NCBI GenBank assembly: GCA_024276465.1
Contig: JAJRXD010000124.1
Coordinates: 1 to 41,534 of the forward strand
Source: Deltaproteobacteria bacterium
GTDB lineage: Bacteria; Desulfobacterota; WTBG01; CAIYCZ01; CAIRTM01
Direction: 5' to 3'
Length of the DNA: 41,534 nucleotides
Each line of letters starts with the position of its first letter. The first letter of the stretch is position 1. Positions 23,231 through 41,534 of the stretch are shown here, in pieces. Both the position numbers and the translations under genes were made by a program. The notes below the pieces were generated by a model, which worked only from the letters and a program-made list of their open reading frames with translations, was not told where the DNA came from and made no database searches.

Positions 23231-24463
23231 CTATGGGAGATCATCATAAATCAGTGCTGCATCTGCATCAATAAGGCCATACCCGTATTCATCGTCCCTG
23301 CCTGTTGGCCCAAGGTCTATGGCTGTTTCTACAATCGCTGTTTTGATTTCATCCGGCCCCCATTGCGGGTTAATCGACTTTATGAGAGCCGCAACACCTG
23401 AAACATGGGGTGCTGCCATGGAGGTGCCTGACAGACTGGCATACTTCCAGCCAACAGCAAAATTTCTAAATCCTAAAAATTCAATAAAAGTTTCCTGAAC
23501 AATATCGTCATTTTCGGGGTCCTGGCTGGAATCTCCCCCCGGAGCAACAATATCCAGTTCAGGTCCAAAATTTGAGTAAAAGGCACGCTGCATTTTATAA
23601 CCAACCGCACCCACAGCCATGACATTTTAAAATGCTGCCGGGAACCCGATTTCAGAAGCCTCGTTACCTGATGCTGCTATTAATATTACCCCCCTGTTAT
23701 AGGCATAGTTAACAGCTTCTTCAAAAATCTCGGAGGATTCATCTCCTCCCAGGCTCATATTGATAATATCTGCCCCCTGGTCTGTTGCCCAGTAAATACC
23801 GTCAGCAACAGAAGAAAGGCTTCCGACTCTGACCCTGGTCAGAACCTTGACCGGAAGAATTTCAGCATCATAGGCAACCCCCACAACGCCCTCTCCGTTA
23901 TTTGTCTCCTGCCCGATGGTTCCTGCCACATGGGTTCCGTGGAAATTACCATCTTCCCACAGGGCTTCAGTTCCAAGAAAAGCATTATATCCCGGCAATA
24001 AGCGGCCGCCAAAACCATCCTTCCCGTTCGGATTTACACCTGTATCAAGAACAGCCACCACAACGCCTTCTCCTGTGCTTTTCTCCCATGCATCCTCCAG
24101 GTTAATCATGGGGAAATTCCATTGCAGGCTGTAGAATTCGTCATTCGGGACACTGTATGCCCTTACAATATAGTTGGGCTCAGCATATTTAACTTCCGGA
24201 TGATTTTTAAGTACAGATATGACAGGACCAGCAGAGCCTGGATTAACCTTTACAACCTTAAAGAAATTATTATATGAACTTTTTACATCAGTAATGCCAG
24301 GGGATTTCAAAATTGATAAAATTTTAAACTCTTTAACCCCATCCCTGAATTTAACAATAATTTCATCTGGCACAAAATCCGGGCTGCTCTCTGTAAAAGC
24401 ATGGACTGGAAGAGAAGTGAACAGCATGGCAATGAAGAACAGTAAAAACAGGGATCTTCTCAT
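23231..24463 (-). pseudogene. Subtilisin-like serine protease (S8) interrupted by an in-frame TAA
   Basis: The first part encodes a signal peptide (about 1-23), an inhibitor I9-like propeptide (about 30-100) and a catalytic domain with Asp140 (VLDTGVNP) and His175 (HGTHVAG), ending SGNEASEIGFPAAF. TAA at 23627-23629 is codon 279. The same frame continues NVMAVGAVG to the catalytic Ser348 in SGTSMAAPH, ending at 23231. Related proteases read FPAAFENV or similar here, so one base change from GAA to TAA explains the stop. All other catalytic parts are intact, so the loss is recent, or this is a sequencing error or a rare read-through. An exported protease is the ancestral role. AAAGGA lies about 11 bases before the ATG. 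Confidence 0.87.
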
Positions 24464-26155: not shown

Positions 26156-26428
26156 TTAATTTGTTTTTTCAGTAAGGTGTCCGGTAATAAATTTATGTAG
26201 TATGCTGGAGATAAATGTCTGGTAGGGCAACCCTTCTTCGACTGCCTTTCTCTGTATGTGGATAAGGTCTCGTTCTGAGATACGAATATTTATACGTTTA
26301 TTCTTTTGTAGTGCATGCTTGGCATATTCGCGATATTTTGCAATTTCCTTTTTCACATTTGACACAGACTTGAATTCACCTTTTTCATAGTCCTGCAGGA
26401 TTTCTCTTTCTTCTTTGTTCAATTTCAT
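26156..26428 (-). CDS. BrnA/CopG-like ribbon-helix-helix antitoxin
   Basis: 90 residues from the ATG at 26428, preceded by AGAGGTG at good spacing. A GTG at 26437 is the alternative start. The C-terminal part, KRINIRISERDLIHIQRKAVEEGLPYQTFISSILHKF, is a ribbon-helix-helix DNA-binding domain as in CopG/BrnA antitoxins. The N-terminal part is charged and probably wraps the toxin. It would neutralise the toxin encoded just upstream and repress their shared promoter. The order here is toxin first, with the toxin stop inside the antitoxin's ribosome-binding region, so the two are translationally coupled. Confidence 0.83.
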   Translation of the reverse strand: MKLNKEEREILQDYEKGEFKSVSNVKKEIAKYREYAKHALQKNKRINIRISERDLIHIQRKAVEEGLPYQTFISSILHKFITGHLTEKTN

Positions 26429-26433
26429 TTTTA

Positions 26434-26706
26434 TCACCTCTTTAGGTATTTTTTCGTAGCTTTGCGGCTGGGAATAATAGTTTTTAAATATATTGTCTCT
26501 TCTTTTTCAATAAAAGGTATTAAATAGGCATAGCTATCAATATTGACGATAAACATTTTTTGACCAGGATATTTATTCGGATTAGGATGGGGGACAACAT
26601 CAAGCACAAAGTCATTGGCAATGTAAAATACTGCCTCTTCAAAGGAAAGCCCTCTAATGGCTTTTAGTTTTTTATTTTTTTCATCATCCCATTCAAATAA
26701 CTTCAT
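26434..26706 (-). CDS. BrnT-like toxin
   Basis: 90 residues starting KLFEWDDEKNKKLKAIRGLSFEEAVF, the BrnT signature (F-x-W-D...K...GLSFEEA), and ending IIPSRKATKKYL. The middle reads VVPHPNPNKYPGQKMFIV, typical of a BrnT-like subgroup. BrnT toxins are RelE-fold ribonucleases that block translation. The ATG is at 26704-26706, and its TGA stop falls next to the antitoxin start. It has its own strong promoter. The pair lies directly against a truncated helicase gene, consistent with arrival by insertion or deletion. Confidence 0.8.
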   Translation of the reverse strand: MKLFEWDDEKNKKLKAIRGLSFEEAVFYIANDFVLDVVPHPNPNKYPGQKMFIVNIDSYAYLIPFIEKEETIYLKTIIPSRKATKKYLKR

Positions 26707-29628: not shown

Positions 29629-31098
29629 CTATCTGAATATATTCAATGCCTTCCTGTTTTTCCTTGCAATAGACATTATTTCGCGGATTTTGTTTCTCCC
29701 ATATCTTGAATAGGTTATAGGAACAGTCAAAATAAAAATCAGCTTGCTCAGCGCTAAACACCTCTTTTTTATAAGCCATAAAACAACAGGTGCTAAAAAA
29801 CGGAATTTAACACAGAACGGAAGAAGATTTTTGAGAATTTCAGCAAGCTCTGCATTGTCCTGTTTAATAAGAGAAGTTTTATGGAATGAGCCTTCACCAT
29901 TGATAATTTTTTCATGATCTGCCGGGTCAAGCAGATTGTTTTCAATACAGTATTTGTAGGAATCCGTGTTGGGGAACGGGTAAAAAATAAACGAATAGGA
30001 CAGGTCACTTTTAATGTCCATTATAAGTTTCATTGTATCAAACATCTGTTTTTCGGTCTCATCCGGAAGACCAAAAATCGCTGAGGTGGTGATTTTGATC
30101 CCATTGTCCCGCAGGAATCTGGCCTGTTCAAGAATCACGCTGTTTTTAATCTTTCTGTTCATAATATTGAAACGCATATCTTCATTGCCTGAGTCAACAC
30201 CAAAGAATACAGACCGGCAGTTTGCCCGCTTCAGGCTGTCTATCATGCGCTGGGTAACAGTTCCCGGACGCACGTGGCAATAAAGCGGCAGATTGATTTT
30301 CTCCCTGTACCTGAGGCTGAACTCCTCAATCCACTCATTATCAAGGGTAAAGGTATCATCGATTGAATAAACAGACTTTATTTCATGCTTTTCCGCACAA
30401 AGAGCAATCTCTTTAATAATGTTGTCAACACTTCTCCTTCGAACATATCTGCCTTTCCCTCTGTACAGCCCCTGCAGAAAATGGTGGCAGCAGTAGCTGC
30501 AGCTGAATGGGCAGCCTCTGCCTGAGACAAGGTAGAATGTGCCGGCAAAACATCCATACTGGTAAAACAGCTCCCTGTCAGGAAACGGAAGGCTGTCAAG
30601 GTCCTGTATAAGAGGCCTTATGGGGTTTTTTATAACAGAGCCGTTTTTCCTGAACCAGAAATTTTCAGTATTATAGTAATCAGAGCCCTTTTCCATTTTT
30701 TCAGCAAGCTCAACAATGGCTTCATCTCCCTCCCCCAGACAGATCATGTCAATATCAGGATTTTTAATTACCTGTTCAGGCAGAATTGTGGGGTGTATCC
30801 CTCCTACTGCAACAGGAATGTTGAACCGTTTTTTTATGACCGATGCTTTTTCTTTTACAAAGGCATACAGGTTTGTAAGGCATGAAAAACAGATAAGGTC
30901 CGGCTGGAACGACTCTATCTTTTTCAGGAACCAGTCATTGCTGCCTGCTTTGAGAAACCCTATATCCAGGAACCCAAGGATATCATCAAGCCCGGGATCA
31001 AAGGCAAGGTCAACCTGATGCCCGTTTTTTTTCAGGGCTGCGGAAAGGGACTCTATTGAAATAGATTCCTGACCTTTTGCAAAAAAAAGTATTTTCAT
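29629..31098 (-). CDS. B12-binding-type radical SAM protein 1
   Basis: 489 residues. The N-terminal Rossmann-like B12-binding-type domain (about 1-140) starts MKILFFAKGQE and contains VGGIHPT and CLGEGDEAIVEL. The usual cobalamin-ligand motif DxHxxG is not seen, as in many such proteins. The radical SAM domain has the cluster motif CX3CX2C at Cys196, 200, 203, then YRGKGRYVRRRSV and GLPDETEKQM. ATG at 31098 is chosen because it aligns with the next gene's start; the in-frame ATG at 31161 would overlap that gene. Close paralogue of the gene at 31115. The reaction is unknown: methylation or rearrangement of a lipid or sugar is typical of the class. Confidence 0.85.
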   Translation of the reverse strand: MKILFFAKGQESISIESLSAALKKNGHQVDLAFDPGLDDILGFLDIGFLKAGSNDWFLKKIESFQPDLICFSCLTNLYAFVKEKASVIKKRFNIPVAVGGIHPTILPEQVIKNPDIDMICLGEGDEAIVELAEKMEKGSDYYNTENFWFRKNGSVIKNPIRPLIQDLDSLPFPDRELFYQYGCFAGTFYLVSGRGCPFSCSYCCHHFLQGLYRGKGRYVRRRSVDNIIKEIALCAEKHEIKSVYSIDDTFTLDNEWIEEFSLRYREKINLPLYCHVRPGTVTQRMIDSLKRANCRSVFFGVDSGNEDMRFNIMNRKIKNSVILEQARFLRDNGIKITTSAIFGLPDETEKQMFDTMKLIMDIKSDLSYSFIFYPFPNTDSYKYCIENNLLDPADHEKIINGEGSFHKTSLIKQDNAELAEILKNLLPFCVKFRFLAPVVLWLIKKRCLALSKLIFILTVPITYSRYGRNKIREIMSIARKNRKALNIFR

Positions 31099-31114
31099 GC
31101 TGCAAGTAATAAAG

Positions 31115-32599
31115 TTAGGGGTTAATTGATTTAAATCCAAACCTGTACTGAAAAAAGACAAAAATGGTTTTCAGGATCTCTTTTCGTTTTATCTTTCCAA
31201 CATGCCCATAGGCAAAGGGGGTTAACAGAAGGTTAACTGCAGCACTTAATCTGAGCAGCCTGAACCTGATAATAATGTCAATCAGGGGCCTGATCATTCT
31301 GAAGCGCATGTAAACAGGCACTGTGTTTTTCAGAATCATGGCCAGATCATTATGCTCGCCCTCAAGAAAAGAGTACTGGTATGGCGAGCCTTCTCCCTCC
31401 CTGATTTTCAGTGCAGTCTCCTGCCTGAGATAGCCATTTTCAAGACAATACTCATACAGTTTTGTCCCGTAAAACGGGTAATAGATTGTCGCGTAAACAT
31501 AGTCTGCCTCTATTTTTTTAAGCATCCTGAATGTGTCAAGCATCTGATCAGGGGTTTCGCCGGGCAGCCCGTACATGGAGGGGCAGGCAAGTTCAAGGTC
31601 TGAATCTCTTATCAGCTTTGCCTGCTCATACATTACATCATTGCTTACTTTCCTGTTCAGTGTCTTTTGCCTGATTTCTGCATTGCCTGAGTCAATGCCA
31701 AGATACATAACCCTGCACCCGGCATCCTTCAGCTTGACAATCATCTGATCAGACAGTGTGCCAGGACGGTAATGGCAATACAGAGGTATGTTAATCCTTG
31801 CTTTATAAGCATCGCAGAACTCCCCAAGCCAGTTTTCATCAAGGGCAAAAAGATCATCCTCAGAATGTATCCTCTCAACCCTGTATTTTTTTACACACTC
31901 CTCAAGTTCCTGTATAACATTTTCTACGCTTCGAAACCGCACGTATTTTCCCCTGCCCCTGTATATTGTCCGGAAGGCATGCTGGCAGCAGTAGGTGCAT
32001 CCAAATGGACAGCCACGGCCAGCTACAAAATAAATATTGCCGGCAAAGCACCCAAACCGGTAAAAAAGATCACGGTCAGGGAAGGGCAGTTGGTCAAGAT
32101 CCTCATTAAGTGGCCGCACCGGGTTGACAACTGCCTCGCCATTTCTCCTGAACCCCAGGTTCAGGGTCTGCGTATAGTCACGCCCCAGCTCCATCAGCCC
32201 GGCAAGCTCTACAAGGCTTTCTTCGCCCTCACCAACACACACCATGTCAATATCAGGGTTTTTCAGAATATGCTCAGGAGCAAGTGTCGGATGGCCTCCG
32301 CCTGCAATGATCGGAACAGAGAAATGTTTTTTTATGAGCCTGGCTGTTCTCTTTACAAACGGATAAATATTGAGGGGGCTGGACATAGCAATCAGGTCCG
32401 GATCAATTTTTTTTACCCCCTTTATTATAAAATCCGGGGTAAGAAGGTCCTCAAAACAGGAGCGCCGGATAAACCCCATGCTTCCGTCAAGGTCCGGGAT
32501 AAACAGAAGCTGAACATCATGGCCCTCTGCCTTAAGAGATGCAGACAGATATTCAATCGCTAATGTTTCCTGGCCCTTTGCAATAAAAAGTATTTTCAT
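31115..32599 (-). CDS. B12-binding-type radical SAM protein 2
   Basis: 494 residues, clearly a tandem paralogue of the downstream neighbour. MKILFIAKGQETLAIEYLSASLK opens the B12-binding-type domain, and GGGHPTLAPEHIL and CVGEGEESLVEL recur in the same places. The radical SAM cysteines are Cys197, 201, 204 in GCPFGCTYCC, followed by YRGRGKYVRFRSVENVIQEL. GLPGETPDQMLDTF is the later conserved motif. No signal peptide is present. The C-terminal part is basic and hydrophobic and may touch the membrane. It is preceded by a 141-base gap, so a promoter could lie there. Substrate unknown. Confidence 0.86.
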   Translation of the reverse strand: MKILFIAKGQETLAIEYLSASLKAEGHDVQLLFIPDLDGSMGFIRRSCFEDLLTPDFIIKGVKKIDPDLIAMSSPLNIYPFVKRTARLIKKHFSVPIIAGGGHPTLAPEHILKNPDIDMVCVGEGEESLVELAGLMELGRDYTQTLNLGFRRNGEAVVNPVRPLNEDLDQLPFPDRDLFYRFGCFAGNIYFVAGRGCPFGCTYCCQHAFRTIYRGRGKYVRFRSVENVIQELEECVKKYRVERIHSEDDLFALDENWLGEFCDAYKARINIPLYCHYRPGTLSDQMIVKLKDAGCRVMYLGIDSGNAEIRQKTLNRKVSNDVMYEQAKLIRDSDLELACPSMYGLPGETPDQMLDTFRMLKKIEADYVYATIYYPFYGTKLYEYCLENGYLRQETALKIREGEGSPYQYSFLEGEHNDLAMILKNTVPVYMRFRMIRPLIDIIIRFRLLRLSAAVNLLLTPFAYGHVGKIKRKEILKTIFVFFQYRFGFKSINP

Positions 32600-32740
32600 G
32601 GTAAAAAATAAAAGATGCGCGTTGCATGTTTTGAGTTACAGGTCTAATAAAATTTTTTAACTATAATGGGTAAATCTCCTGTTCTGAGACTGTGTCACAA
32701 TTATGAATGAGAAGGGTAGCCGCAGATCAAAATTCCCGGG

Positions 32741-34120
32741 TCAGCTCACAACTTTTGCAAATGCTTTCAGGTTCATCTTCACCTCTTCCATGGAGCGGAT
32801 CTTTAACATGTGCCGGAAAAGAAAGGAAGGACGGAGATAAAACTTTCTGTAAAATTTTCTGTGCCATCTGTCTACAACATCAGGATCAATCGTGGGCAGG
32901 CGCATGACTGAATTAACCGTTGTATAATCACTCCAGTCATCACTCATCAGATACCCCTTTTCCTTTGCCCACTGGTAAAGCCTGCTCCCCGGAAGGGGGG
33001 TGAGAACTGTAACAGATATCAGATCAAGGTCCAGATCTTTTGCAAAATCGACTGTCTGCTTCAGGGTTTCTTCGGTCTCCCCGGGACACCCGACCATAAA
33101 AGACCCTCTGGCATCAATTCCAGCTTTTTTTACCATGGCTACAGCTGCCCTCACCTGATCTAACTTGACCGGTTTATTTAAGTTGCGAAGGATTGTTTCG
33201 CTGCCCGACTCTATTCCCATGCAGATCTGATGGCACCCTGCCTCTTTCATATGCATAAGCATCTCTTCATCAAGCGCAACTGCATTTGCCATGCAAAGCC
33301 AGCTTATATCAATTTTTTCTTTTTTTATAAGCCCGCACAGCTCTAAAACTCTTGCCTTGTTCAATGTAAAACTGTCATCCTGAAAATGAATTTCCTGTAT
33401 TCCGTATTTTCCTGTAAGAAGCTTTATCTCTCCCAGAATGTTCTCTGCAGACCTGAAGCGAAACTTGCTTCCCATTGCTGCTGTTGTACAAAAACTGCAT
33501 TTAAACCTGCAGCCCCTTGAGCCAATAAGCATCATGGCTGGCCAGCGTTTTGCAGTACCAAGGGTCAGCTTGCTTTTCCCCATGGGAAGCAGGTGATATG
33601 CGGGGTATGGTATATCATCCAGGTTTTCAATCCATGGCCTGCTGGGGTTGTGTACTGCTTTTTCTCCCTCCCTGAAGCTCAGGCCGGAAATTTTTTCAGG
33701 CTGCTTTCCCTGGACCAGCTCAGTCAGTGTTATCTCACCTTCATTTCTCACAACAAAATCTACGGATGAAATTCCCAAAACCTCATCAGGAAAGAGTGTC
33801 GGGTGTACTCCTCCCATTACAATACGTGAACCAGGACTGGTTTCTCTTGCAATCATGGCAACCTTTGTTGCCATTTTAAACTGATATGATGTGGTGCTGA
33901 TTCCTATCCACGGAATGCCCTTTTTTTCGATTATTTTTTTCTTTACATCTTCAAGGCTTTTATCCTCGGCAGAGGCATCAAATATTTCTGCCTGCATCCC
34001 GTTTTTCTCCAGGGAGGCTGCAAGATAACCAAGGCCAAGGCTCGGGGTGTTGGCTATCAGCCCCTTCCAGAATGAGCCTTTTTCTATTATCCACGGCGGA
34101 CTTATCAGTAAAATATCCAT
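32741..34120 (-). CDS. B12-binding-type radical SAM protein 3 (different subgroup)
   Basis: 459 residues. The N-terminus MDILLISPPW then SLGLGYLAASLEKNG is the common opening of B12-binding radical SAM proteins. GGVHPTLFPDEVL and RNEGEITLTELV follow. The cluster motif is Cys204, 208, 211 in GCRFKCSFC, then KFRFRSAENILGEI and HFQDDSFTLNKARV. GCPGETEETL marks the later barrel. It is a different subgroup from the proteins at 29629, 31115 and 37043, because it lacks the YRGKG segment. It starts 21 bases downstream of the next radical SAM gene, so co-transcription is likely. Substrate unknown. Confidence 0.86.
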   Translation of the reverse strand: MDILLISPPWIIEKGSFWKGLIANTPSLGLGYLAASLEKNGMQAEIFDASAEDKSLEDVKKKIIEKKGIPWIGISTTSYQFKMATKVAMIARETSPGSRIVMGGVHPTLFPDEVLGISSVDFVVRNEGEITLTELVQGKQPEKISGLSFREGEKAVHNPSRPWIENLDDIPYPAYHLLPMGKSKLTLGTAKRWPAMMLIGSRGCRFKCSFCTTAAMGSKFRFRSAENILGEIKLLTGKYGIQEIHFQDDSFTLNKARVLELCGLIKKEKIDISWLCMANAVALDEEMLMHMKEAGCHQICMGIESGSETILRNLNKPVKLDQVRAAVAMVKKAGIDARGSFMVGCPGETEETLKQTVDFAKDLDLDLISVTVLTPLPGSRLYQWAKEKGYLMSDDWSDYTTVNSVMRLPTIDPDVVDRWHRKFYRKFYLRPSFLFRHMLKIRSMEEVKMNLKAFAKVVS

Positions 34121-34141
34121 AATACCTTCTGCAAAAAACAG

Positions 34142-35557
34142 TTATTCTTTATAAGCCTTAAGAAAGGTTCTCTTGGCAAACCTGAGGAAAAGGTTCGGAA
34201 TATCTTTTTTCTGAGGCAAAAGCTGCAAAAACCTGAACATGCGCATGGGGTTCAGATAAAACAGATAATTTGCCTTTTTAAGCAGCCTCTGAAGCTCAGC
34301 GTCATCCACCTCGCAAATTCCATACGGATGAAAATAGTGGAAAAGAGCACCGTCATCCGGTTTCTTTTCAATGGAATCTTTAACCATATCATAGAGCTCT
34401 GTCCCCGGATTTGGCGTAACAACAAAAAAACTTGCTGTATGAAATTTTGATTTCAGGGCATACCTGATAGTCATTTCAATTTCCTGCCTTGTTTCACCGG
34501 GAAATCCTATCATGAAAAAACCGTTTACGATTATGCCTAACTTGTCAGTCTTTTTAATAATTTCAAAGACCTTGTCAAGCTGTACATTCTTTTTGATAAT
34601 TTTCTGCATCCGCGGGGACGCTGTTTCAATGGCATAGGAAACCATATAAGTTCCTGCTTTTTTCATTTTTCCTAACAGCTTGTCTGTGAGCCTGTCAGCA
34701 CGCACTCCATTGGGAAAGGAGATTCTAATGTCAAGATTGCTGTCAATAATGAAATCAAGGATCTTTTCTGCCCTGGAAATATCAAGGTTGAAGGTGTCAT
34801 CTGCAACATGCAGTTCTCTGATACCATACTCATGGTATAAAATATTTATCTCTTCACAAACATTTTCAGCACTTCTGGTGCGGTATTTTTTACCGAAAAC
34901 AGGGTGGCAGTAAACACACTGATAGGGACAGCCCCTGGATGTAAAAATGCTCATATACCGTTTGTGGGCGTGGATAACGCTCTGGCGCACCTTGGGAAAA
35001 TATTTCTCAAGCGCAACCAGGTCCCAGGCTGGAAACGGAAGACTGTCAAGGGGCGTGTCCGGAATTTTGCGCGGGTTAATCACTGGTTTTCCCTTGACCC
35101 TGTAGGCAACACCAGGCATCTCGGGCGCGGGATTGCCTGCATTAATCTCATCTATAAGCCTGCAGAAAGCCTCCTCCCCGTACCCTATAATAACATAATC
35201 AATATTGTCATCTTTTATGAGTTCATCAGGAGCAACAGATGCATGAACCCCTCCCACAACTGTTGTTATTGCAGGATAGTGCTGCTTGATCAGTTTTGCC
35301 ATGCTGTGCAGTTCTTCAGCCTCATAGGTCATTCCGCTTATCCCTGCAAAATCAGCAGAAAACTCACCAATCTTTTTGATAATATTTTCATAAGGAATCA
35401 ATTCAACTTTGGGATCAATAATTGTTACATCATGGTTGCCGAATTTTCGAAGGGATGAGGCAATGTACATAAGTCCCAGAGGAAAACAAAGGAAGTCATT
35501 AAAGGGAAATCCCAGGGTCTTTGGGGTTCTAAGCAAAGCAATTCTTGACATCTTCAA
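34142..35557 (-). CDS. B12-binding-type radical SAM protein 4
   Basis: 471 residues. LCFPLGLMYIASSLRKFG and GGVHASVAPDELI mark the B12-binding-type domain (about 1-145). The cluster cysteines are Cys210, 214, 217 in GCPYQCVYC, followed by KKYRTRSAENVCEEI and ELHVADDTFNLD. GFPGETRQEIEMT is the later motif. It is most like protein 3 in layout. It begins 13 bases after the methyltransferase gene ends, in the same orientation. No membrane segment is obvious. A radical methylation or ring-forming step on a lipid or glycan is plausible but not shown. Confidence 0.86.
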   Translation of the reverse strand: MKMSRIALLRTPKTLGFPFNDFLCFPLGLMYIASSLRKFGNHDVTIIDPKVELIPYENIIKKIGEFSADFAGISGMTYEAEELHSMAKLIKQHYPAITTVVGGVHASVAPDELIKDDNIDYVIIGYGEEAFCRLIDEINAGNPAPEMPGVAYRVKGKPVINPRKIPDTPLDSLPFPAWDLVALEKYFPKVRQSVIHAHKRYMSIFTSRGCPYQCVYCHPVFGKKYRTRSAENVCEEINILYHEYGIRELHVADDTFNLDISRAEKILDFIIDSNLDIRISFPNGVRADRLTDKLLGKMKKAGTYMVSYAIETASPRMQKIIKKNVQLDKVFEIIKKTDKLGIIVNGFFMIGFPGETRQEIEMTIRYALKSKFHTASFFVVTPNPGTELYDMVKDSIEKKPDDGALFHYFHPYGICEVDDAELQRLLKKANYLFYLNPMRMFRFLQLLPQKKDIPNLFLRFAKRTFLKAYKE

Positions 35558-35570
35558 TCCTCTTTAGTTG

Positions 35571-36227
35571 TTAATTTGCAGCATAGATGAACATCTGTTT
35601 TCCCATAATAAGCTGCAGTGGATAAAGTTTCAGATAAATTTTTACAAACAGGGGGTGCAGCGGCAAACAGGATTTTGTTGAAAAGGGTAAAAACTTCGGC
35701 TTAAGCATCAGGATTTTAAACCCCAGGCACAGCAGGGCTTCCCGCAGACTTTTATGGCTCAGGGCAATATTATGGTCAAAAAAATCCCAGTACTGCTTAT
35801 AGCAGTACCTGATGTTCGGCTGAAGTATAAGAAGCTTGCCCGGATTCCTTGTGATTTTTTTTATCTCCTGCAGCGTTATTCGCAGCTCTTCCTTACTGTT
35901 CATATGCTCAAAAAAATTGCTGACAAAAACCACATCAACCTTTTCCCCCTGAAGAAACTCTGAGGCTTTTGTGCATGGGCCTGTGATGACCTTTACATCA
36001 GGGTGCGCATACAAGCCCGTGTTTTCCTGCGCATCAAGAGCATATTTTTCCCCGCAGACAATATTATTTATAAATTCACAATTTCCTGCACCCATGTCAA
36101 GCACTGACTGGTTTTCACCTATAAACTGCTGGAAGAAATCCCTGCACAGCACCTGCCAGACAAGGTCTCTTTTTTGCCGCTCCTTTTCTGAAAACCGTAT
36201 ATCCAGATAGTTGTCAGTCTCAGGCAT
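35571..36227 (-). CDS. Class I SAM-dependent methyltransferase
   Basis: 218 residues with a Rossmann methyltransferase fold: motif I VLDMGAGNCEF at 42-52, a second acidic strand end YALDAQE, and VDVVFVSNFFEHM as motif IV. Such small SAM methyltransferases (Methyltransf_11/23 type) in glycan clusters usually O- or N-methylate sugars or lipids. The C-terminal 60 residues are basic and hydrophobic, which could place it at the membrane. Its start overlaps the end of the GT2 gene by 8 bases, indicating translational coupling and a shared pathway. Confidence 0.85.
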   Translation of the reverse strand: MPETDNYLDIRFSEKERQKRDLVWQVLCRDFFQQFIGENQSVLDMGAGNCEFINNIVCGEKYALDAQENTGLYAHPDVKVITGPCTKASEFLQGEKVDVVFVSNFFEHMNSKEELRITLQEIKKITRNPGKLLILQPNIRYCYKQYWDFFDHNIALSHKSLREALLCLGFKILMLKPKFLPFSTKSCLPLHPLFVKIYLKLYPLQLIMGKQMFIYAAN

Positions 36228-36972
36228 TCTTCCGTGCAGCCTTCCTGTTTCTGTTTTTGTCAGTAAAAAAGCTTACCAGCCTGTAGCGGAAAATCAGCAG
36301 AATCATCCTGAGCCCCAGGAACAGGGCAACCTTGCTGTTGCCTGTTACCATGGATTTACCCACCCTCTCTGCATACCTGACAGGAATCTCAATAAAATTA
36401 ATGTTGCTTAGAATAACAAGACACATCAGCTCGGGATTAAAATGGGAGTTCCCCACTGTAAAGCTACTCCTGATCTTTTCATAGGCATTTCTTGTAAGAA
36501 GCTTCATGGAACATCCAACATCAGTAAGCACACCTGTTAAAAAAAGAAATTCTATCAGTTTTGCAACAAACCAGTTGCCAACTCTGAGGAACATACCCAT
36601 ATTGGCCCTGTAATCTATCAGCTTGGGTGCGGTCCGCGATCCGAAAACAACATCAAACCCGTCAGAATAGGCAAGAAGCTTTAATACATCCTCTCCGTAA
36701 AAAGTGCCATCAGGCTCTGAAAGTATTATTATATCACCTGTTGCTTCCTTCATTCCCCTCTGCATTGCATACCCATAGCCCTGCTGGGGTTCAAAAACCT
36801 GAACAGCCCCTGTTTTTTCCACCTCCTCCTTTGTGCCGTCTTCAGCATTATTATTCACAACAATTATTTCATCCACATACCCTGTGCTGAAAAAATCCTC
36901 AATAACCGACCTGATCGAGAGCTTCTCACGGTAAGTAGGAAAAACAACAGATACCTTTTTATTTTTCCACAA
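36220..36972 (-). CDS. Family 2 glycosyltransferase (polyprenyl-phosphate sugar synthase-like)
   Basis: 250 residues. VVFPTYREKLSIRSVIEDF and IIVVNNNAEDGT form the nucleotide-sugar fold. The metal-binding acidic motif is EPDG at 86-89, then DVVFGSRT and TDVGCSMKLL. This is the pattern of dolichol- or undecaprenyl-phosphate sugar synthases. The C-terminal 40 residues are hydrophobic and basic. It would load one sugar on a polyprenyl phosphate at the inner membrane face, and the GT-C-like protein encoded nearby could use that donor on the outer face. That pairing is inferred from context. Confidence 0.88.
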   Translation of the reverse strand: MWKNKKVSVVFPTYREKLSIRSVIEDFFSTGYVDEIIVVNNNAEDGTKEEVEKTGAVQVFEPQQGYGYAMQRGMKEATGDIIILSEPDGTFYGEDVLKLLAYSDGFDVVFGSRTAPKLIDYRANMGMFLRVGNWFVAKLIEFLFLTGVLTDVGCSMKLLTRNAYEKIRSSFTVGNSHFNPELMCLVILSNINFIEIPVRYAERVGKSMVTGNSKVALFLGLRMILLIFRYRLVSFFTDKNRNRKAARKNA

Positions 36973-37042
36973 AATTCAACTCCTTAATCCCTGGTTTTTG
37001 TTCCTCAACACCAACCTGCGACCTCGTGACACACGAAACTCG

Positions 37043-38497
37043 TTATGCCTCTGTGCCTTTGTGCCTCTGCCCCTTTTTGCCTGTCCTTCCGAGTCTCAGC
37101 TTTATCCTTTCCAGAAACGGCAGCAAAACATCACCTGCATCAATCCAGCTTATTCTGAAAAAATAGCCATAGCTTCTCGTTACATGCCAGATTAATTTAA
37201 AAAAAACATTATCAGGAAGCTTGATTGCCAGTCTGATAACAGGCAAAAGTCTCTGAAATTCCACTCCAAGGGAAAACAGGCGGGAAAGGTTTTTAAGCTC
37301 TTTTTTTTCTTTCAGCTCAAGTACAGACGTGGCGTAGAAAGAGTCATGGAGAATTTCATTTTCTTTTTTATAATATCCCTTTGCAATAGCATACTCAGTC
37401 AGCTCAACCCCGGGATAGGGTTGAAAAATGGATGCATTTGCATAGCTTGGCCTGCACAAAGCATTGAGCTTTACGGTCTTGAATGCTTTTTCAACTGTTT
37501 CCCCTGGCAATCCTACCATATTTTGAGTAAAAAACTTAATTTTATATTTGTGCATAAGCTGACCAGCCTCGATGATTTTTCTTTCAGAAATTTTTCTTTT
37601 GAGAATTTCATTTCTGAGAAAATCATCACCTGTCTCAATCGCAAAAGTTACAGTAATGACTCCTGCTGATTTTAATGCTGCAACAATTTCCTCATCAAGA
37701 AGGTTCACCCTGACATAGCAGATAAAGGGTATGGAGATCTCTTTCCGGTAGACATTGCAGAAGTCAAGAACCCACTGCTTGTCCAGTATAAATATATCAT
37801 CAAAAAATTGAATCCTTTTTACCGGAGCACTGGCTCTAAGCTCCTCTGTTTCTGCAATTACGTTTGAGATACTTCTTTTTCTGCAAAAAAGTCCTTTCCC
37901 CCTGTAGATTTTTTTAAGGGAATGGTTAAAACAGTATGTACAGTTAAACGGGCAGCCCCTTGAGGTTAACACATATTTGTTGCTTCTTTTTCTGTATGCA
38001 TCATATTTGTACACCAGATCACGGTCAGGAAACTCAATCTCATCAATATTGCGCTGCAGGTTCCTGACAGGGTTTCGGAATATTTTTTCCCCGGCCTTCA
38101 CCCAGATGTTTTTTATGCTGGTTATATCCTGCTGCTTTTCAATCTTCGTGACAAGTTCTGCAAAAGCAGCCTCACCCTCCCCCACGCATATTGCATCAAC
38201 ATCAGGCTCATTAATGAATTCAGGGAAAAAGGTTGCATGCGGCCCCCCAAAAACGGAAAAAAAACTGAGCCTCTCTTTAAGAGCACTGTTAAGCTGCGCA
38301 TAAAGTCTGTGTGTTCCTGTAATAATGGAATATGCAATAATGTCAGGCTGCAGACCCTCAGCAAAAGAGAAAAGTGAGGGGCCAAGGTTTATGTCATAAA
38401 AAAAGGTTTCGTGCCCATCTTTTTTCAGTGCGCTTGAAAGGCACATAAGCCCTATGGGCTCAATATAGTTGTATTTATAAACAAAAAGGACTTTCAA
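37043..38497 (-). CDS. B12-binding-type radical SAM protein 5
   Basis: 484 residues and a third member of the subgroup found at 29629 and 31115. The N-terminal domain has GLMCLSSALKKDG, FGGPHATFFPEFI and CVGEGEAAFAEL. The radical SAM cysteines are Cys182, 186, 189 in GCPFNCTYC, followed by YRGKGLFCRKRSISNVIAE. GLPGETVEKAF is conserved. The last dozen residues (GKKGQRHKGTEA) are encoded by a low-complexity tandem sequence and look like a late extension. It begins 68 bases after the GT-C-like gene. The substrate is unknown, but presumably shared with the neighbours. Confidence 0.86.
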   Translation of the reverse strand: MKVLFVYKYNYIEPIGLMCLSSALKKDGHETFFYDINLGPSLFSFAEGLQPDIIAYSIITGTHRLYAQLNSALKERLSFFSVFGGPHATFFPEFINEPDVDAICVGEGEAAFAELVTKIEKQQDITSIKNIWVKAGEKIFRNPVRNLQRNIDEIEFPDRDLVYKYDAYRKRSNKYVLTSRGCPFNCTYCFNHSLKKIYRGKGLFCRKRSISNVIAETEELRASAPVKRIQFFDDIFILDKQWVLDFCNVYRKEISIPFICYVRVNLLDEEIVAALKSAGVITVTFAIETGDDFLRNEILKRKISERKIIEAGQLMHKYKIKFFTQNMVGLPGETVEKAFKTVKLNALCRPSYANASIFQPYPGVELTEYAIAKGYYKKENEILHDSFYATSVLELKEKKELKNLSRLFSLGVEFQRLLPVIRLAIKLPDNVFFKLIWHVTRSYGYFFRISWIDAGDVLLPFLERIKLRLGRTGKKGQRHKGTEA

Positions 38498-38565
38498 AAA
38501 TATTCCCCTGTGGTTAAGCCGCAGAGCTGTCAGTCTAAGCTGAAATCGGGACTGATAGCTCCGGA

Positions 38566-40518
38566 TTAAAGTCTGTTTCTGAATAAATCTGCTATTTTTA
38601 TCCAGTCTGCGAAAACAGCTTTGTAGCTGTTGTAGATGATAAGCTCTGCTGGCGGGTTTTTTAATGTTATAAATCCGCCCGGATCATCCAGCATGCGTGT
38701 CTCATCAATGGCAATTTCAGATTCTGTCCTTAAATATTTCATCCACCGGTAGGATATTATTACTTCACCATCCTGTGGCTCCAGGTCTGTTAGTTCAATC
38801 CTGTTTATTTCAGCCCTGATTTTTCCACGACCTTTAATGAAAAAGTTGCCTGTCCTGTTAACTTCATAGATATAAAATTTATCAATTTTTTTTCTGAACA
38901 GATAGTAGTCAGGGGCTGATTCAAAAAAATCTCTTGATTCCTCAGACCAGATTATAATCCATTTTATATTATACAGGTCCATATACGGCCACACTTCATC
39001 ACGGGTGTACTCCTGTATTTTTCTTCGAAAAAGGTAACCCCAGTAAAAGGTGGCAAATGAATCACGGCTGATTGCATAAGGAGAATAATTGCCTATATAT
39101 TCTCTTTTGGTCAGCAGGGGAAGAAAATACGGGAGATGAGTTCCATAGTACTGATGACTGCTTTCAAAGTCTGAGTTTTCAATAAGGATCCTGCCATCAG
39201 GAGAAGTATTCTGCCTGATCCATGATGTCAGGGCATTAACAGGTGCCGGGATTTCTGTTAAAAGGCGAAAGTCCTTTCTTTGAAAAAGGTGGTAGTAGGG
39301 AACGGCCAGAACTGTTCCAGACAGATAAAAGACAACTATCAAAGATAATGACCTGATTTTTACCGGTTTGTCTTTGAGAAACAGATCGTATAGCCTGCAG
39401 AGCCCTGTTGCAGCCGGAACACACAGACATACATTCATAAAAATTATAAAACGAAGAGGCGTAAGGCTGGCTGTAAAATCCCAGAATGAGCCGTAATATG
39501 CCAGCAAAAAAAAGAAGGTTACAGTAGCTGCAAAAAGGACTGCCCGCAGCCTGTTTTCTTTCCCTCTCCACACAGTCATTCCCAGTATACCTGTCCCTAA
39601 AAGAATCAGATCAACAATGCCGGATTTAAGAAAGGGGATATTCATATATTCATTGAATTTCAGGTTGAGGAAGAAATATGTGTTCAGAGGCTCGGTCAGG
39701 CAGGGGGTTGCATAGATAAAATTATCCCGTGCAAGATCTGCATAGTCAACCAGAAAAATCAGGCAGGGAACCAGCCATATACTGTTAAGAAAAAAAACAA
39801 AACTTCCTGAGAAAGCCACTAAAGCGTGCTGCTTTAATGAAAGTTTGCTGAAACAGAAAATGTAGCAAACAATGACAGGGATAAAAACATGCAGGGCTGT
39901 AAATATATGAACCCAGAACCCTGCACTGAAAAGAACAGCAAACCATACAATGTCAGCAGTCTTTCCGTTTTTTACAAATCTGTAGAAAAAAGATGTTATA
40001 AGAATACACAGGTAGCAGGACAGTATGTAGGATACTGTGCCCCAGTAAAGAAAATCCACGCATATGCTGACATGCAGGAAAAGCGTCCCTAAAACCGAGC
40101 ATACAGCAGCTTCCTTCCTGGTCAGGCCGAAATTTTTTGAGCTCTGGTATAATAAAAAAGGAATGCTCAAAATGGTAAGAATTAAATACAGCTTAAACGA
40201 AAAACCTGATGGTAAAAACGATAAAAGGTAAATAAACACAGACCATCCAAAGTTATCCACTGAAAAAAATATGTTGCATACACTGCCTGCCCGCACATAG
40301 GGGTTATATGCAAACAGCATTTTATATTTTTCAAGATAAACACCTTTATACAGCGCATCAGCATAATGAAAGCTGTAGTCGTCGGTATAGATGGCATTTT
40401 CATTAAACCATTCGGATACGGGTATATAGCATCTGGTAAACCCCACCTGAAGAAGAAACAGCGCCAGCAGGACAGCTTTATGACAGTTTTTGTCTAAACC
40501 AGCTTTTTTAAACCCCAT
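38566..40518 (-). CDS. GT-C-like polytopic membrane protein
   Basis: 650 residues. One N-terminal membrane segment (about 14-30) is followed by a loop with an acidic pair at Asp46-Asp47 (IYTDDYSFHYADAL), the typical place for the catalytic acid of GT-C glycosyltransferases. About ten more membrane segments run to residue 410. A soluble domain (about 415-640) follows, containing the segment RILIENSDFESSHQYYGTHL. This layout matches GT-C enzymes that use polyprenyl-linked sugars on the periplasmic face. No specific family can be named. The start overlaps the upstream radical SAM gene's end by 25 bases. Confidence 0.75.
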   Translation of the reverse strand: MGFKKAGLDKNCHKAVLLALFLLQVGFTRCYIPVSEWFNENAIYTDDYSFHYADALYKGVYLEKYKMLFAYNPYVRAGSVCNIFFSVDNFGWSVFIYLLSFLPSGFSFKLYLILTILSIPFLLYQSSKNFGLTRKEAAVCSVLGTLFLHVSICVDFLYWGTVSYILSCYLCILITSFFYRFVKNGKTADIVWFAVLFSAGFWVHIFTALHVFIPVIVCYIFCFSKLSLKQHALVAFSGSFVFFLNSIWLVPCLIFLVDYADLARDNFIYATPCLTEPLNTYFFLNLKFNEYMNIPFLKSGIVDLILLGTGILGMTVWRGKENRLRAVLFAATVTFFFLLAYYGSFWDFTASLTPLRFIIFMNVCLCVPAATGLCRLYDLFLKDKPVKIRSLSLIVVFYLSGTVLAVPYYHLFQRKDFRLLTEIPAPVNALTSWIRQNTSPDGRILIENSDFESSHQYYGTHLPYFLPLLTKREYIGNYSPYAISRDSFATFYWGYLFRRKIQEYTRDEVWPYMDLYNIKWIIIWSEESRDFFESAPDYYLFRKKIDKFYIYEVNRTGNFFIKGRGKIRAEINRIELTDLEPQDGEVIISYRWMKYLRTESEIAIDETRMLDDPGGFITLKNPPAELIIYNSYKAVFADWIKIADLFRNRL

Positions 40519-41534
40519 TTTATAATGTCCCCTGAATAAAAAACACTTGGAGCTATGTCACACTCACTCCAGCAGCCCCCGCAGGCCTTTACCGCCCTTC
40601 TCTCCTTCATGGCTGCCTCTGAGAACCATATTTCAGAAAAAGATTTTTCTCTGAGGTTGCCTGCCACCTTGCTGCTCCTCAGGCTGCATGAAACAGCTCC
40701 TCCGTCAGGAAGAAGTCTTAAGTGAGTAAAAAAGGCCGTACAGAGAGGTTTGGGTTCTTCCTTTTGATACAAAAGACGGTTTCTGCCGCCCTCATTAAGA
40801 TATCCCTCTAAAAGATCCCGCAAAGAAGAGCTGACCTGTTTCTTTTTAAGATCATATGCATTATGTTTTAAAGCAGAAATCCTTGAATAAATGTCCTCAA
40901 TGGTCTGCAGATCCATGGAATCAATTGTCACAAACGGAAGGGGTTTGCTGAAATCAATACATTCATGGGTTCTTCCCTCATGATACTTTACCGCAAGCGT
41001 TATATTGTGGGTACAGTTAAACTGCCCCGCAAGGTGATTGACATCTTCTATTTTTGTTATATTATCCTTTGCGATTGTCTGGTTAATGCCCACCTCGAAA
41101 CTCCATTTCTCCCTCAGTTTCCGAAGTGTTTCAAGGGTGCTGTACGCCTTTTTAAAAAGACCCGGAACCCCCCTTATCCTGTCGTGAAGCTCAGAGGCAT
41201 CATCAAGGCTTATCTGAACGTGCAGCTGAATCCCCAAAGGCAGCACCCTTTCAACAAATGCCTCAACCCTTTCGGGAAATGTTCCGTTTGAAGTAATATA
41301 AAAAATGCGTGCTTTTGTAAGTTTGTGGATGCTTGAAACAATACCGCCAATATCTTCTTTTAAAAATGGTTCTCCACCGGTAAACCTGACCACATCAAGG
41401 CGGGAAAAAGCCCTGTCCGAAAAAATCTTATTGATCTGCTTTTCTGAAAGCTCATCAGGGCAGTCTTCTGCTTTCTTTGCCATTTCACACATCAGGCACC
41501 TGCAGTTACACCTGTAGGTAACACAATATGTAAC
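40494..41534 (-). CDS. Radical SAM protein with SPASM-like C-terminus, 5' end outside window
   Basis: The reading frame is open through the right edge, so the N-terminus is missing. An ATG at 41492 is not the real start: the residues upstream, TYRCNCRCLMC, carry the radical SAM CX3CX2C motif, and the Met lies inside it. FTGGEPFLKEDI and YITSNGTFP are classic radical SAM barrel motifs. The C-terminal cysteines (CTAFFTHLRLLPDG, then VSCSL, then CGGCWSEC) resemble a SPASM auxiliary-cluster domain as in PqqE-, MoaA- or anSME-like enzymes. No B12-binding domain is visible in the part present. It overlaps the GT-C-like gene by 25 bases, so it belongs to the same operon. Confidence 0.87.
   Translation of the reverse strand, partial: VTYCVTYRCNCRCLMCEMAKKAEDCPDELSEKQINKIFSDRAFSRLDVVRFTGGEPFLKEDIGGIVSSIHKLTKARIFYITSNGTFPERVEAFVERVLPLGIQLHVQISLDDASELHDRIRGVPGLFKKAYSTLETLRKLREKWSFEVGINQTIAKDNITKIEDVNHLAGQFNCTHNITLAVKYHEGRTHECIDFSKPLPFVTIDSMDLQTIEDIYSRISALKHNAYDLKKKQVSSSLRDLLEGYLNEGGRNRLLYQKEEPKPLCTAFFTHLRLLPDGGAVSCSLRSSKVAGNLREKSFSEIWFSEAAMKERRAVKACGGCWSECDIAPSVFYSGDIIKWGLKKLV

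Follow-up and report, generated by a model that had tools for sequence, protein, structure and literature searches.

In the three-component glycosylation systems that have been described, polyprenyl phosphate is charged with a sugar by a GT2 enzyme, the second component is a flippase, and a GT-C enzyme acts outside the membrane (PMC11127046, PMC8035078). The systems GtrB/GtrA/GtrC and CsbB/GtcA/YfhO and that of the GT136 pentofuranose are of this type. The locus described here resembles them in that a dolichol-phosphate-mannose-synthase-like (DPM-like) GT2 and a protein with a predicted GT-C fold occur together, and a related radical SAM array in another genome (G083) adjoins a YfhO-family protein. 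It differs from them in that no flippase gene was found in the cluster, its GT-C protein belongs to no Pfam family, and B12-type radical SAM enzymes, four to five in number, are added. A likeness to archaeal N-glycosylation by AglJ and AglB is also seen, since AglJ is the best NCBIfam match of the GT2 and the GT-C protein has a predicted fold like that of AglB (5gmy, Z 21.1); however, the GT2 scores 80 bits against AglJ, far under the cut-off of 325, and the GT-C protein does not have the WWDxG motif. On the side of the radical enzymes, class 1 cobalamin-dependent radical SAM enzymes (OxsB, TokK, CysS, TsrM and MgmA) and AprD4 share a Rossmann B12 domain and a barrel with the five B12-binding radical SAM proteins of the locus, for which the labels B12a to B12e were coined in this analysis, but these five lie under every curated NCBIfam cut-off and occur several per cluster. 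HpnJ is a cobalamin-dependent radical SAM enzyme, and the enzymes for ladderanes and for tetraether rings have been proposed to be such enzymes as well (PMC13142503). The B12-type enzymes HpnJ and BchE and those of ladderane synthesis have the same domain order as B12a to B12e, which nevertheless stay below their cut-offs in a host genome without a hopanoid cyclase.

The window analysed here is an entire contig (C93, 41,534 b) of a metagenome-assembled genome of 4.1 Mb that is 95% complete. At its right end, re-checking of the ORFs placed nine genes on the minus strand (29629-41534) with a widest intergenic gap of 141 nt, between B12c and B12d, as the earlier note had it in describing nine same-strand genes with gaps of at most 141 bases. 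The run begins with a SPASM-type radical SAM protein (40494..41534; Pfam Radical_SAM and SPASM; closest solved structures SkfB and BlsE), whose 5' end is cut by the contig end, and continues with a GT-C membrane glycosyltransferase-like protein of 650 aa (38566..40518), B12a (37043..38497), the polyprenyl-phosphate sugar synthase-like GT2 (36220..36972; Pfam Glycos_transf_2), a SAM-dependent methyltransferase, hereafter MT (35571..36227; Pfam Methyltransf_11), B12b (34142..35551), the HpnJ/BchE-like B12c (32741..34120), B12d (31115..32599) and B12e (29629..31098). The classes that the earlier note had assigned to eight of these proteins were confirmed by Pfam, and its GT-C-like membrane protein was confirmed by an AlphaFold model and fold matches. 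Three overlaps had also been claimed, of which those between the SPASM and GT-C genes (25 nt) and between the GT2 and MT genes (8 nt) are true. The third, between B12d and B12e, was an artefact of an upstream TTG start codon, because the starts that are conserved in relatives (the ATG at 35551 for B12b and the ATG at 31098 for B12e) leave only two real overlaps and a 16-nt gap in front of B12e. Downstream of B12e, on the same strand, lies a gene for a tail-specific protease. Since the SPASM gene is cut and an assembly overlap search found no other contig of this genome that overlaps the cut end, the upstream end of the cluster lies beyond the known sequence. Sites resembling promoters and terminators were no more frequent in the region than in shuffled sequences, and an Rfam scan of the window gave no RNA family.

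The clustering of B12-type radical SAM genes is not due to chance. With gene totals judged from the listings of this genome, Monte Carlo runs of 400,000 trials on a 4.1-Mb genome never placed five of about 15 such genes in one 9-kb stretch. When B12d and B12e were treated as a single gene, four of 14 fell within 9 kb in 16 of 400,000 trials. A second radical SAM run in the same genome, at 72-79 kb of another contig (G000:C2, L023), has four radical SAM genes, and a B12-binding match was seen for three of these.

A gene-neighbourhood comparison, which the earlier note had proposed as the way to check its idea of a common pathway, gave support to that idea. The nearest cluster is found in Thermodesulfobacteriota bacterium PL23b_bin.63 (JANQGV010000314.1, here G002:C177), which belongs to another genus of the same family. 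There, a 529-aa GT2 protein is followed by B12a, GT2, another SPASM protein, MT, B12b, B12d and B12e, and from B12a to B12e no gap is wider than 85 nt. The GT-C gene of G002 adjoins this cluster, converging on it from the opposite side. Protein identities between the two clusters are 58% for B12a, 76% for GT2, 55% for MT, 65% for B12b, 61% for B12d and 51% for the GT-C protein. In a tree, B12a, B12b, B12d and B12e are 1:1 orthologs between the window and G002 (support 100/100), and the duplication that gave rise to B12d and B12e is old, predating the split of the two genera. B12c and the SPASM gene of the window are missing from the G002 cluster, and the conserved core therefore comprises seven genes (B12a, GT2, MT, B12b, B12d, B12e and GT-C), not nine. 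Thus, the shared product that had been suggested for all nine genes holds as a shared pathway for this core, and B12c and the SPASM protein fall outside the conserved set. It might be argued that a glycosylation pair simply lies beside radical enzymes with separate substrates, so that two or more unrelated functions are neighbours. The different place and strand of the GT-C gene in the two genera, the coming and going of B12c and the SPASM gene, and the frequency of B12-type radical SAM genes in the phylum, where 94 of 395 genomes have relatives, would agree with this, but six genes hold their order at 55-76% identity with the short gaps of G002, the GT2 gene lies between B12a and MT in both clusters, and like mixtures recur with other GT-C families, all of which makes such a coincidence quite unlikely. 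That the cluster serves one pathway is likely.

All five of B12a to B12e have Radical_SAM and B12-binding domains above the curated Pfam cut-offs, with scores for the N-terminal B12-binding domain (PF02310) of 58.7 to 84.3 bits against a cut-off of 32.1, and all five carry the CX3CX2C motif of the radical SAM barrel. They may use cobalamin. None of the five reaches the cut-off of any curated NCBIfam radical SAM model, and membership in the ladderane, hopanoid, BchE and RiPP maturase families was rejected by these scores. The AlphaFold model of B12d (pLDDT 90) aligns from residue 1, that is, including the Rossmann B12-binding domain, with OxsB, CysS and TsrM, and it matches MgmA (9ccb, Z 28.2), a glutamine methylase, and AprD4 (6fd2, Z 28.1), a sugar diol dehydratase, to the same degree, which means that the fold cannot choose between methylase and dehydratase reactions. 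In an alignment with TokK made by hand, the residue under the corrin is Asn in B12d and B12e, Gly in B12a and Tyr in B12b and B12c; this residue is no predictor of the type of reaction, and no conclusion was built on it. The radical enzymes may act on a lipid or a glycan, by methylation or rearrangement.

If the substrate is a lipid, the radical enzymes would alter a lipid of the membrane in the manner known or proposed for HpnJ and the ladderane and tetraether enzymes, and the GT2 and the GT-C protein would add a sugar head group to it. That the known or proposed enzymes of this kind are cobalamin-dependent radical SAM proteins, and that HpnJ, BchE and rSAM_ladder_B12 are among the NCBIfam models nearest to the cluster enzymes, would be in line with such a pathway. 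So would the last 100 residues of B12a to B12e, which have a net charge of +3 to +11, with basic amphipathic stretches in B12b, B12c and B12e; these basic tails would fit work at a membrane, though the evidence is weak. The scores themselves are far under the cut-offs, however: the highest among the five against HpnJ (TIGR03471), that of B12c, is 260.2 bits where 577.6 are required, and against the ladderane model (TIGR04072) at most 132 bits are reached where the cut-off is 360. In addition, squalene-hopene cyclase (PF13243) was not found in this 95% complete genome, which disfavours the hopanoid version in particular, no fatty-acid or isoprenoid gene was found among the scanned cluster proteins, and the partner genes that recur in other genomes are glycan genes. 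A lipid pathway therefore seems unlikely.

The 650-aa membrane protein had no Pfam match, and its identity was approached through an AlphaFold model (pLDDT 81, pTM 0.83), which predicts a GT-C fold. The best match of the model is the oligosaccharyltransferase STT3 (8age, Z 23.4 over 477 residues), and besides AglB it matches AftA (Z 20.7), PMT (Z 18.9) and ArnT (Z 16.1); a Foldseek search with the model gave 28 matches at E <= 0.001, every one of them a GT-C protein. The catalytic acid of GT-C enzymes is located after the first helix, and at this place Y44-x-D46-D47 is invariant in 11 homologs. The protein thus probably works like a GT-C transferase, as far as a predicted structure can tell. 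The oligosaccharyltransferase motif WWDxG is missing from all 11 homologs, and for this reason we did not file the protein as an oligosaccharyltransferase. A paralog with 73% identity elsewhere in the same genome (G000:C157:504-2444, L013) neighbours a SAM synthetase gene. It stands apart from radical SAM genes, as do most relatives of the protein. A homolog with 44% identity (L015, G001:C424) is accompanied by four radical SAM genes, three of them of the SPASM type, a GT2 and a DegT aminotransferase, without B12-type enzymes.

These results also bear on a peptide or surface protein as the substrate, which SPASM and B12-type enzymes would modify and an oligosaccharyltransferase-like GT-C protein would glycosylate. 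Oligosaccharyltransferases are the top fold matches of the GT-C model, enzymes of both radical classes are known to modify peptides, MgmA among them, and MgmA matches the B12d model. Against this, the absence of WWDxG counts once more, AprD4 matches B12d as well as MgmA does, and the tight intergenic gaps of both clusters could hardly hold a precursor gene, the window cluster being known without its upstream end. Furthermore, the SPASM protein is not shared by the window and G002 clusters, and no close ortholog of it was found in 20 related genomes. We regard a peptide pathway as very unlikely.

The nearest solved proteins of the GT2 are dolichol-phosphate mannose synthase (DPMS, 5mlz) and ArnC, and both its family and these closest structures fit a predicted function as a polyprenyl-phosphate sugar synthase of the DPM type. 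The suggestion of the earlier note that the GT2 and GT-C proteins handle a polyprenyl-phosphate sugar that is used outside the membrane is backed by the family of the one, the fold of the other, and the presence of PMT_2 or YfhO proteins in other arrays. Such a pair stands here beside five B12-type radical enzymes and a methyltransferase. When all are taken together, the simplest view is that the sugar is tailored by MT and the radical enzymes, and the chances that the product of the cluster is a surface glycan are about even.

As an overall explanation, we propose that the cluster is one module for the biosynthesis and export of an unusual surface sugar, with a probability of roughly 0.5. In this module, polyprenyl phosphate would receive a sugar from GT2 on the inner side of the membrane. 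The tailoring of this sugar, or of a short lipid-linked glycan, would fall to B12a, B12b, B12d, B12e and MT, before or after lipid loading; the reactions at unactivated carbons would be C-methylation, dehydration or rearrangement, with ordinary methylation in addition. B12c and the SPASM enzyme would be lineage-specific additions to the tailoring. An unlinked flippase would turn the lipid-linked product over, and outside the membrane the GT-C enzyme would pass the sugar on to an acceptor, which may be a glycan, a lipid or a protein. The substrates, the order of the steps, the type of reaction, the use of cobalamin and the acceptor are what we infer in this scheme. It is based on the gene content, the linkage of seven genes in two genera, the folds predicted for the GT-C protein and for B12d, and the recurring combinations in the phylum. 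The basic C-terminal tails of the radical enzymes would fit this scheme too. Counted against it are that the exact gene set was found in two genomes only, that neither a flippase gene nor a nucleotide-sugar gene was found in the cluster, and that the GT-C protein has its paralog elsewhere. The search for a flippase covered the nine cluster proteins (by Pfam), with the upstream end of the cluster missing; GtrA-type genes occur at other sites of this genome, and G002 gave none.

Among 395 sampled genomes of the phylum, G002 alone has matches that reach ortholog level for the window genes. The scores drop sharply beyond it, from more than 900 bits to 518 for B12d/e, from 1029 to 509 for B12b and from 560 to 278 for GT2. 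When named genomes were scanned with the alignment of B12d/e, the contig of G002 came up together with three distant loci that lack the cluster, and scanning viral contigs gave a single weak partial match. Looser combinations were more common. The largest array that we met is in G027 (C111, ~7.8-52.1 kb; L070, L109 and L115), where 18 B12-type radical SAM ORFs with CxxxCxxC lie in about 44 kb together with a DPM-like GT2, methyltransferases and two PMT_2 GT-C proteins. The array in G083 (C72:1576-16093, L127) has six tandem B12-type genes, the YfhO-family membrane protein, an MT and a DPM-like GT2. A GT2 in this array is akin to the 529-aa GT2 protein found in the cluster of G002. B12-type genes are accompanied by five PMT-like proteins and an MT in G099, and a SPASM protein, a DPM-like GT2, a B12-type enzyme, an MT and a PMT_2 protein occur together in G012. 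In G103, the GT2-MT pair is kept and adjoins PMT_2, GT4 and NeuB genes, which is a surface-glycan setting.

The neighbours of B12b relatives were compared with those in a small set of 21 control regions on large contigs, excluding the locus that was the source of the profile (L070) and the locus that was the source of the synteny (L014). The p-values are rough, because the iterated profiles took in members of tested loci, because several loci share a genome and because the controls were picked by hand. Methyltransferases (12 of 24 regions versus 2 of 21 controls, p 0.004) and additional radical SAM genes of the B12 type (12 of 24 versus 0 of 21, p 1e-4) were enriched, and no significant enrichment was seen for DPM-like GT2 (7 of 24 versus 2 of 21, p 0.10) or for large membrane proteins (16 of 24 versus 12 of 21, p 0.36). 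We read the recurrence of radical enzymes with GT-C, GT2 and MT genes as a real but loose theme and not as a fixed system. A more far-reaching view would be that these loci form an undescribed, phylum-wide class of surface-glycosylation loci. Whole sets of B12-type radical SAM enzymes would then work directly on sugars linked to polyprenyl phosphate, and interchangeable GT-C enzymes would attach the highly carbon-modified products outside; this view is tentative and doubtful.

The enzyme classes in the cluster are known, and their combination is one that we could not find described, as a search of the available literature gave no paper on it. To our knowledge, sugars that are carbon-methylated or rearranged by radical enzymes come mostly from antibiotics. 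If the proposed module is true, the joining of several B12-type radical SAM enzymes to lipid-linked sugars would extend such chemistry to bacterial surfaces, and the product, if it is one odd component of a sugar coat, is not known to have been isolated. Defined gene sets, with arrays of up to 18 genes, are also a place to find substrates for a large group of uncharacterised enzymes.

Two further features were seen in the window outside the gene run. A single subtilase is present at 23231-24463 as two adjacent ORFs, which match positions 174-288 and then 1-169 of the profile, and this split indicates that the gene is broken or misassembled. At 26156-26706, an ORF for a BrnT-like toxin, with a score under the Pfam cut-off, lies with a small neighbouring ORF, and the two are possibly a toxin-antitoxin pair.
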